Of a DNA stretch of 64,000 nucleotides, positions 50,931-52,945 are shown piece by piece; position 1 is the first letter of the stretch; each line of letters begins with the position of its first letter. The translations under genes were made by a program, and so were the position numbers. The notes under the pieces are model-generated. The model did no database searches. It was not told the origin of the DNA and was given only the letters and a program-made list of their open reading frames with translations. The DNA comes from Weissella paramesenteroides ATCC 33313 (lineage in GTDB: Bacteria; Bacillota; Bacilli; Lactobacillales; Lactobacillaceae): assembly GCF_000160575.1 (NCBI RefSeq), contig NZ_GG697130.1, forward strand, positions 1 to 64,000, read 5' to 3'.

Positions 50931-51215
50931 ATAAGATCCTCCATTCATTTACTATCTCAATAGTACCAAACCGGCATCTGAAGTGATAGTTTTTTAAATA
51001 ACCGAACAAAAATAAAATTGTACATACCATAATACTTAATTTATGAGTGCTACAAAAATGTTACCAGTGCAAAATAAAAGCCCTAAAAATCCTAAAAATG
51101 AAGGATTCTTAGAGCTATTTTGAGTGCCGTCGACAGGCATTCACTTTCCTATTATATAGGTGTTTACGAGGTGTGTGTAGCAAACTTGTAGCAAATATCC
51201 TGTTTCAAATAATGC
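50931..51215. other. Host-prophage junction with putative attachment site and integrase-arm repeats
   Basis: This gene-free stretch separates host psiE from the phage small-RNA region. It holds a hairpin with CTAA-AATCC/GGATT-TTAG arms (51079-51110), an inverted repeat TGAGTGCC/GGCATTCA (51121-51128 and 51136-51143), and two direct repeats TGTAGCAAA (51176-51184 and 51187-51195) spaced by exactly 11 bases, one helical turn. Such repeats are typical of integrase arm sites beside an att core. No tRNA end is present. The core itself cannot be fixed without the other prophage end. Confidence 0.45.
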
Positions 51216-51259
51216 AAAAAGTCTCACCAGATAGAGTGACAGCTCTAACCAGTGGGGAT
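51216..51259 (-). terminator. Minus-strand terminator closing the phage small-RNA region
   Basis: CACTGG pairs with CTGGTG (two G-U pairs) and TAGAG with CTCTA, followed on the minus strand by TTTTT. Its arm sequence resembles the terminators of the two tandem units upstream. Confidence 0.7.
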
Positions 51260-51422
51260 TTTTAAAATGTTCTATCCTAGTTACAAATAACCAATAAGAT
51301 GAGATAAATCATGTAGTACGTAAATCAACAAACTTTGTAGGAATAAGTAGGATAACTAGTAGACGGTTATATCCACCAAATATCTACACAATTATTTTAA
51401 TACAATATTTTAAACAACCTAC
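51260..51422 (-). other. Possible third, diverged small-RNA unit
   Basis: This 160-base stretch lies between two minus-strand terminators and has no ORF with a ribosome site. Its terminator arms resemble those of the neighbouring units, but the body has no clear similarity and the promoter (TTGTTT with a weak -10) is poor. It could be a decayed or distant third unit. Confidence 0.25.
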
Positions 51423-51569
51423 AAAAAAACCACCAGTCGCATAATCTGGTGGTTTGAACCATGACAAATAGCAAATACAAAATGGTAAGATATCACAGTT
51501 TTAATAGTTATGTGACTCGATCAACACATAACTACTTGTAGAGCAGCTGGAAGAGATACTAAGCCCTAC
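51423..51569 (-). ncRNA. Predicted phage small RNA, unit A (distal copy of a tandem pair)
   Basis: On the minus strand an extended -10 (TGTTATGAT; -10 at 51576-51581) is followed by about 147 bases ending in a perfect terminator (51428-51454, stem AACCACCAG/CTGGTGGTT, then T7). Two hairpins are predicted: GTAGGGC/GCTCTAC and TAGTTATGTG/CACATAACTA with loop TTGATCGAGT. A largely unpaired segment of about 45 bases then leads to the terminator. Unit B repeats this design with substitutions that keep pairing. No protein similarity is visible. The function is unknown. Confidence 0.6.
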
Positions 51570-51591
51570 ATGATAATCATAACACATAGCA

Positions 51592-51747
51592 AAAAAGCCC
51601 ACCAGTCGCAATGACCAGTGGGCTGAACCATGAAAGGAGCAAATACAAAATGGTAAGATATCACGGTTTTAATAGTTACGTGACTCGATCAACACATAAC
51701 TAATGTAGAGCAGCTGGAGAATAGCTTCGATAGATATCATGCTCTAC
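51592..51747 (-). ncRNA. Predicted phage small RNA, unit B (proximal copy of a tandem pair)
   Basis: A perfect extended -10 TGTTATAAT (minus strand; -10 at 51754-51759) directly follows the endolysin terminator. About 156 bases later a terminator (51597-51623, then T6) ends the unit. The hairpins are GTAGAGC/GCTCTAC and TAGTTATGTG/CACGTAACTA with the same TTGATCGAGT loop as unit A. The single-stranded part contains CTCCTTTC, which can pair with GAAAGGAG ribosome sites, for example those of the tape measure and Dit genes. The RNA call rests on architecture, not on a known family. Confidence 0.6.
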
Positions 51748-51768
51748 GTAGGAATTATAACACACAAC

Positions 51769-51810
51769 AAAAAGCCCACCAAACTATTCAATCGAATAAC
51801 CTAGTGGGCT
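51769..51810 (-). terminator. Terminator after the endolysin gene
   Basis: AGCCCAC/GTGGGCT arms with an inner ATTC/GAAT pairing are followed on the minus strand by TTTTTG. It lies 31 bases past the endolysin stop and closes the late lysis transcript. Confidence 0.85.
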
Positions 51811-51841
51811 TAATTTTGCGACCGACATTAATGTCGGTCCC

Positions 51842-52945
51842 TTATTTAGTTAATAACGAATTGGCATTGTACCAGATGTTGCCATAAACACCTTCAACGA
51901 TACCAGCACCATTTGAGGCGTTATCGTATCGATCAATTGTACCATAGCTGTAACCAGTTTTGAACTTAACTGTATCGCCAACACGAGTTGCTGCATAGTT
52001 ACCACGAGTGATGTTATCTAGCATAGCTAGTGGAATACCATTGGCCGTCCACGAGGCGTCTTTACCGCCAGCAAGGTCGTAATTGATAGCCTGCCACATA
52101 CCATTGACATAAGCAATCTTGTCCACACGGAAGCTCTTGTAAGCCGTGAAACGATTACCCGCATTCTTAAACTGCTTGATGGCTAATGTGTCTGGCTTGT
52201 TCACCACTGGCTTACTTGGCGTGATATTTGGCACCACAGCGTTCTTATCAGTGCCAGCTGTAAAGAAGTTGTCGTACAGAATTGAAGCGTCAAAACGTCC
52301 CAATGAGCTGGCGAAGGTTTGGTTTGACGTCCATTGCCAAGCGTGCTCAGTTGAATAAAGCTTCATAGCCGATGTGGGTACGTATGGGTATTGCGCCAAC
52401 CACGCCTTTTCCCCAGCAGGACTGACACTTGATGAGTAACCACCAGTGTAAGTGGTTGAGCGGTAACCATACGCCCGCACACGGTTTTCAAACGCTGTTG
52501 CAACTGGTTGCATACGTGAGCCCATTGACAATTGGTATGAGTTCTCAATATCAACTGCCAAGACAGCACCAACAGGTAAGCCGTCAGCCTTTGCCATACG
52601 AACCGCATAATCAGCTTCAGCAATCGCCCCAGCAACTGTCGTTGATGACAGGAAATGGTACCCGTTGATGTAAACACCAGCAGCCTTAGCGGCTGCAATG
52701 TTTCCTGGTGCGGTGTAATCATGGAAAGTCGTTCCTTCTGAAATCTTGGTGGTGATTGCCTTAACACCGTAATTGTTGCGCATATACACGAACTCTGGCG
52801 CTGTCATTTGGCCGTTATGATTAGACGTATCGACCATATCCACACGAGGTGTGTCAGCATGGACAGTATCAGATGATACATAGCCAACACCTGCGAATGC
52901 TAAAAAAGCACCTGTCACAACAAGTGCTTGCTTTAATTTATTCAT
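51842..52945 (-). CDS. Phage endolysin: GH25 muramidase with signal peptide and C-terminal SH3b-like wall-binding domain
   Basis: The 367-residue lysin starts with a Sec signal peptide (basic MNKLK, hydrophobic core, cleavage near VHA-DT at residue 31). A GH25 lysozyme domain follows (about 34-225), with the catalytic-type acidic residues in VDMVDTSNHNG and AVLAVDIENSY and the substrate segment YHFLSS. After a short linker a C-terminal SH3-like repeat region (about 255-367) should bind the wall. Exported lysins of this kind are known from phages of Oenococcus and Lactobacillus. It is last in the lysis module, 10 bases after the holin gene. Confidence 0.92.
   Translation of the reverse strand: MNKLKQALVVTGAFLAFAGVGYVSSDTVHADTPRVDMVDTSNHNGQMTAPEFVYMRNNYGVKAITTKISEGTTFHDYTAPGNIAAAKAAGVYINGYHFLSSTTVAGAIAEADYAVRMAKADGLPVGAVLAVDIENSYQLSMGSRMQPVATAFENRVRAYGYRSTTYTGGYSSSVSPAGEKAWLAQYPYVPTSAMKLYSTEHAWQWTSNQTFASSLGRFDASILYDNFFTAGTDKNAVVPNITPSKPVVNKPDTLAIKQFKNAGNRFTAYKSFRVDKIAYVNGMWQAINYDLAGGKDASWTANGIPLAMLDNITRGNYAATRVGDTVKFKTGYSYGTIDRYDNASNGAGIVEGVYGNIWYNANSLLTK

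Follow-up and report, generated by a model that had tools for sequence, protein, structure and literature searches.

Two head-to-tail units on the minus strand of a Weissella paramesenteroides prophage, here called A and B, look like genes for a structured non-coding RNA of roughly 150 bases. They were found in the window (the whole stretch of 64,000 nucleotides that was analysed), between the endolysin gene and the attachment site (Table 1). Judged by sequence, each unit is non-coding and carries its own promoter and terminator inside the prophage. Comparison with homologous copies in other Weissella phage elements establishes the structure, the strand that carries it, its conservation, the lack of coding capacity and, in the prophages, the location of the units between endolysin and att. 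We are highly confident that the structure and the gene-like design are real, and a discrete RNA is expected to be made from these units.

Layout of the units and their place in the prophage

Both units start at an extended -10 element with the consensus TGTTATRAT and end in an intrinsic terminator, in agreement with a preliminary description of this DNA. Neither promoter was picked up by a simple two-hexamer promoter scan, because the -35 element is absent; the case for them is that every one of the six family members keeps the extended -10. A terminator scan found the terminators of A and of the endolysin operon, the terminator of B being visible only in the fold. The predicted RNA (145–160 nt) forms a first hairpin, P1, with arms GTAGRGC/GCTCTAC, a second, P2, with arms TAGTTATGTG/CACRTAACTA and the loop TTGATCGAGT, a third, P3, whose arms AACYGTGA/TCATGGTT enclose a long loop, and the terminator hairpin P4. 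The preliminary description counted two hairpins per unit, P1 and P2, which are both present, and overlooked P3. Its shared core of about 80 nearly identical bases was recovered as a core of 65 bases, repeated 168 bases apart with 97% identity, and the P2 loop that it gave as unchanged is present in A and in B. The folding energy is -50.8 kcal/mol for A (z -5.14) and -44.3 kcal/mol for B (z -4.07), each better than 200 of 200 dinucleotide shuffles.

Table 1. Positions of the features in the window and of the related copies
Feature	Position	Strand	Remarks
Unit A, candidate small-RNA gene, promoter to terminator	51592..51759	-	
Extended -10 of A, TGTTATAAT	51754..51762	-	kept in 6/6 members
Predicted 5' end of A RNA	about 51747	-	
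P1 of A	51705..51747; arms 51741-51747 + 51705-51711	-	
P2 of A	51673..51702; arms 51693-51702 + 51673-51682, loop 51683-51692	-	
P3 of A	51626..51668; arms 51661-51668 + 51626-51633; loop 51634-51660	-	
P4, terminator of A	51596..51624	-	terminator scan
Unit B, candidate small-RNA gene, promoter to terminator	51423..51582	-	
Extended -10 of B, TGTTATGAT	51577..51585	-	
Predicted 5' end of B RNA	about 51569	-	
P1 of B	51538..51569; arms 51563-51569 + 51538-51544	-	
P2 of B	51505..51534; arms 51525-51534 + 51505-51514	-	
P3 of B	51457..51500; arms 51493-51500 + 51457-51464	-	anti-Shine-Dalgarno part degraded
P4, terminator of B	about 51428..51455	-	seen in fold
Unit C, conserved element next to B, having a promoter-like box and a terminator	51210..51390	-	
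att core TGAGTGCCGTCGACAGG, prophage end	51121..51137; other copy at 90824 of contig	+	
Integrase gene	89599-90675		
GH25 endolysin gene	51842..52945	-	
Late/endolysin operon terminator	51772..51811	-	directly upstream of A promoter
C13 copy	C13:562632 onward		same genome as A and B; DNA search
C12 copy			W. thailandensis; DNA search
C36 and C77 copies			W. fangxianensis; DNA search

The position at the lysis end of a prophage, proposed earlier, is borne out by the two att cores and the adjoining integrase gene, which bound an element of 39.7 kb (51121-90840). A and B overlap no gene. They lie between endolysin and att, point the same way as the late genes and come directly after the late terminator, 0.3–0.7 kb from the att core; in the circular phage they would stand just before attP and the integrase gene. 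The att core sits within a plus-strand terminator-like hairpin (51121-51143). Downstream of B there is a further unit, C, and the same order is kept at the C13, C36 and C77 copies. Unit C was not found in W. thailandensis, has no covariation support among the relatives and folds with ordinary energy (z -1.57); it could represent a further RNA or belong to the attachment region.

Relatives in other Weissella phage elements

Beyond A and B the family has four members. W. fangxianensis contributes two and W. thailandensis one; the fourth is a further copy in the genome of A and B. A covariance model scores the six at 182–214 bits, by construction, as it was built on them. No further member above 36 bits was found among 28 genomes of the genus (one per species), 398 of the family and 395 of the order, samples that overlap partly; in the larger scans the filters were tighter, at the cost of weak matches. 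This search beyond the window, which the preliminary description had suggested as a check, gives relatives in Weissella only. Weak matches fall at 20–36 bits; a wider family was considered from them and rejected, as the best one (36 bits) proved to be the common terminator hairpin only. A pattern match in Nitrosospira was taken as chance because its locus has no covariance-model match. Neither phage or plasmid records nor, by pattern, IMG/VR gave a match, in collections where records near the source may be left out. The earlier statement that no described family fits holds against Rfam 15, which yields only tRNAs in the window and no family above its gathering cut-off for A or B (the best weak match being RsaOG, which scores 17.7 bits where 50 are required), and no comparable RNA turned up for Weissella or Lactobacillales in the papers searched. 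The units probably represent a new family of phage regulatory RNAs, ordinary in kind.

The order and orientation of endolysin, unit and att are kept in prophages that have different endolysins (GH25 or amidase) and use different integration sites; in two of the relatives the endolysin that precedes the unit is an amidase, and the integration site is another one. C13 and C36 stand beside prohead-protease genes or their remnants, near the gap gene. These varied neighbourhoods indicate one RNA unit in different phage backgrounds.

Several observations were made at these and similar places. In the C77 prophage of W. fangxianensis (L039:11606-12810), the gene for a SocA/Panacea-type antitoxin stands between the endolysin and the RNA unit together with an adjacent ORF that has no Pfam match, possibly as toxin-antitoxin cargo. 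The C36 phage-like region (L038:3347-4417) contains an FRG-domain protein, possibly defence or toxin cargo, beside an IrrE-type peptidase. The terminator hairpin CCCACTGGTCATTGCGACTGGTGGG (window 51596-51624) recurs at other Weissella phage ends (L006, L010 and L011, around position 1500), the other parts of the unit being absent; in one case it comes directly after an amidase endolysin. The genome that contains A and B also has an amidase endolysin, 81% identical to the one in W. fangxianensis, at C5:27873-28787 (L109, G000:C5:18000-36000), and the genome-wide search with the RNA-family model gave no match near it.

Conservation of a minus-strand RNA structure

The six members were aligned (C13 and C36 being nearly identical), and the consensus structure was derived from the same alignment with RNAalifold. 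All four helices are kept in every member, and 97% of the 233 pair cells are standard pairs; slid controls give only 31–49% pairing, a comparison that leans toward the structure since it was derived from this same small alignment. Two-sided changes across homologues, the test for a structural RNA family of its own, occur in 6 of the 39 pairs, spread over all four helices, and in 10 cells; the pair count was matched by 5 of 500 shuffles and the cell count by none of 500. The preliminary description held that the stem differences between A and B preserve pairing. They do fit the structure, but the changes CACATAACTA/CACGTAACTA and GTAGGGC/GTAGAGC are one-sided, from A-U to G-U, so they are not covariation, which comes from the relatives.

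The strand is indicated by the wobble pairs: 13 pairs show G-U and one shows A-C, and among the inner pairs the count is 11 to 1 (p = 0.006, with pairs treated as independent), an asymmetry that is somewhat inflated because the pair choice of RNAalifold favours G-U. Such an excess of G-U over A-C argues that the minus strand is the RNA. The -10 is invariant in the six members save for one A/G position, whereas none of the next five bases is invariant. Several single-base indels separate the members, and no reading frame on either strand is common to the six, on which ground coding on either strand was rejected. The homologues thus keep the pairing and not the coding, and the minus-strand structural RNA suggested earlier gains the support of four helices, the wobble asymmetry and the conserved -10. 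The most conserved hairpin is P2, 76–97% identical between copies and with a loop that keeps TTGNNYGAGT in 6/6; the P3 loop ranges from 28 to 100%.

A and B as mosaics

The tandem duplication proposed earlier stands only in part. The P2-P3 core is nearly identical in A and B, but P1 is 59% and the terminator 70% identical, and parts of each unit are nearer to other copies: A matches the W. thailandensis copy at 93% in P1 and 97% in the terminator, while the B terminator is 91% identical to those of C13 and C36. By these identities A and B are mosaics rather than a plain duplication, and gene conversion, or the acquisition of two lineages, fits better than one recent duplication.

The P3 loop and the search for targets

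Read as its complement, the P3 loop of A gives AAAGGAGCAAATACAAAATGG, a Shine-Dalgarno sequence followed by AUG about ten bases on; in C13 and C36 the complement, AAGGAGCAAATACAAAATGG, likewise holds Shine-Dalgarno plus AUG, and in C77 it is the weaker AAAAGAG-N9/10-ATGG. The arrangement, noticed after the fact, is clear in three of the six members (A, C13 and C36); B has a degraded form of it and the W. thailandensis copy none. Elsewhere in the genome of A and B nothing matched the complement of the P3 loop without gaps and within 3 mismatches, and other Weissella genomes gave a single such match, with 3 mismatches, at no evident translation start. When duplexes were scored, as an exploratory step, across about 136 kb of the A/B genome, the results stayed near chance: 5 of 100 shuffled loops did as well as the best score for A, 81 of 100 as that for B and 31 of 100 as that for the C13 type. 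An exact 17-mer searched against IMG/VR for a viral target had 25 matches, of which many are expected by chance. The endolysin mRNA was considered as target and rejected: the start of the W. fangxianensis amidase gene, AAAGGAAGCAAATAATGGTAA, is similar, but the W. thailandensis start and that of the window's GH25 gene are not, and the energies, covering two of the four endolysin starts, do not clearly exceed those of shuffled loops (29 of 300 in the best case).

Discussion

We infer that A and B are expressed and act in trans as antisense RNAs. In the proposed mechanism the extended -10 of each unit would drive synthesis of an RNA of about 150 nt, made up of three hairpins and an intrinsic terminator. 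This transcription would not depend on the late operon, which ends in a terminator immediately next to the first promoter. The RNA would then pair in trans with the translation start of an mRNA, in an antisense mode, with P1, P2 and P4 as the stable scaffold, P2 as the signature of the family and the P3 loop as a changeable recognition arm. It is the complementarity of this variable loop to Shine-Dalgarno and AUG that points to antisense regulation of translation by way of a loop that can change. Having two copies in tandem would increase the dose or cover two targets, the loops of A and B being unlike in their anti-Shine-Dalgarno part. That they are prophage-borne RNA genes with their own promoters, acting by trans antisense at a translation start, seems to us evenly balanced between right and wrong, antisense action itself having about even odds.

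The main rival to antisense action is an RNA that serves as scaffold or sponge, its conserved P2 binding a protein or another RNA and its P3 loop being unconstrained. The conservation of P2 and its loop, the variability of the P3 loop and the failure of the target search would all suit such a role, which is nevertheless somewhat unlikely, as it would make a coincidence of the anti-Shine-Dalgarno and anti-AUG sequences in A, C13 and C36 and leave unexplained why the P3 stem itself is kept with compensating changes. Another possibility is that A and B are mainly serial terminators insulating the late operon from att and host DNA, with incidental promoter boxes and other hairpins. A terminator does follow the endolysin gene and recurs in each unit, and the same hairpin stands alone at other Weissella phage ends; yet insulation needs neither the paired changes in P1, P2 and P3 nor the conserved extended -10, and a promoter placed after a terminator defeats it, so that this explanation appears improbable.

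More improbable still is that the repeats act as DNA, as integrase arm sites, packaging sites or other protein-binding inverted repeats. They do lie close to the att core, but palindromes have no preference for G-U over A-C (11 against 1, somewhat inflated by RNAalifold), the members are found at different integration sites, and promoter and terminator are in register with the fold. Hardly credible, finally, is a plus-strand gene for a short peptide, AAAGGAGCAAATACAAAATG, of 17–19 codons: a Shine-Dalgarno sequence and ATG are present in A, C13 and C36, but the Shine-Dalgarno is missing in B and the W. thailandensis copy, and the frame is not common, A reading MVRYHGFNSYVTRSTHN and C13 meeting a stop after five codons.

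As candidate antisense RNAs, A and B can be set beside several known small RNAs. The streptococcal cia-dependent csRNAs, which are mostly chromosomal, have CiaR promoters and typically carry the pairing sequence between two stem-loops, are likewise short, multicopy RNAs of Lactobacillales with stem-loops, a terminator and an unpaired complement of Shine-Dalgarno and AUG (PMC3091779); in the A/B family that sequence lies instead inside the loop of the third hairpin, in only some copies. SprD and SprX of Staphylococcus aureus, pathogenicity-island or phage RNAs that block translation initiation sites, SprX in 1–3 copies, are alike by description in being borne on mobile elements, in copy number and in the kind of site that A and B would block (PMC12101431), whereas A and B have a different host and no Rfam match above cut-off. 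The Listeria LhrC1-5 RNAs (111–114 nt, under LisRK control, with UCCC motifs at three sites) also exist as several near-identical copies, and their CU-rich sites block a ribosome-binding site, but they are conserved across Listeria (PMC4132741) where the A/B family is phage-borne. The superinfection-exclusion RNAs STnc6030 of BTP1 and sas of P22 are prophage-encoded as A and B are, and are regulatory, but their antisense target is a phage gene of the locus that encodes them (PMC12197685), whereas A and B overlap no gene.

A bolder proposal, which we put forward as rather doubtful, is that these are cassette RNAs specific to Weissella and carried by phages, in which the scaffold would stay constant while the targeting loop is swapped. 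Recombination would have spread them among unrelated prophages and remnants, and they would silence the translation starts of host genes or competing phages. Little seems to have been described of regulatory RNAs carried by phages of lactic acid bacteria, and if expression is confirmed the family deserves an Rfam entry. Compact, with well-marked ends, copies in tandem and loops that vary naturally, it offers a tractable case for how prophages acquire RNAs and re-aim them; if the P3 loop is the aiming part, the natural variants already supply the swap experiment.
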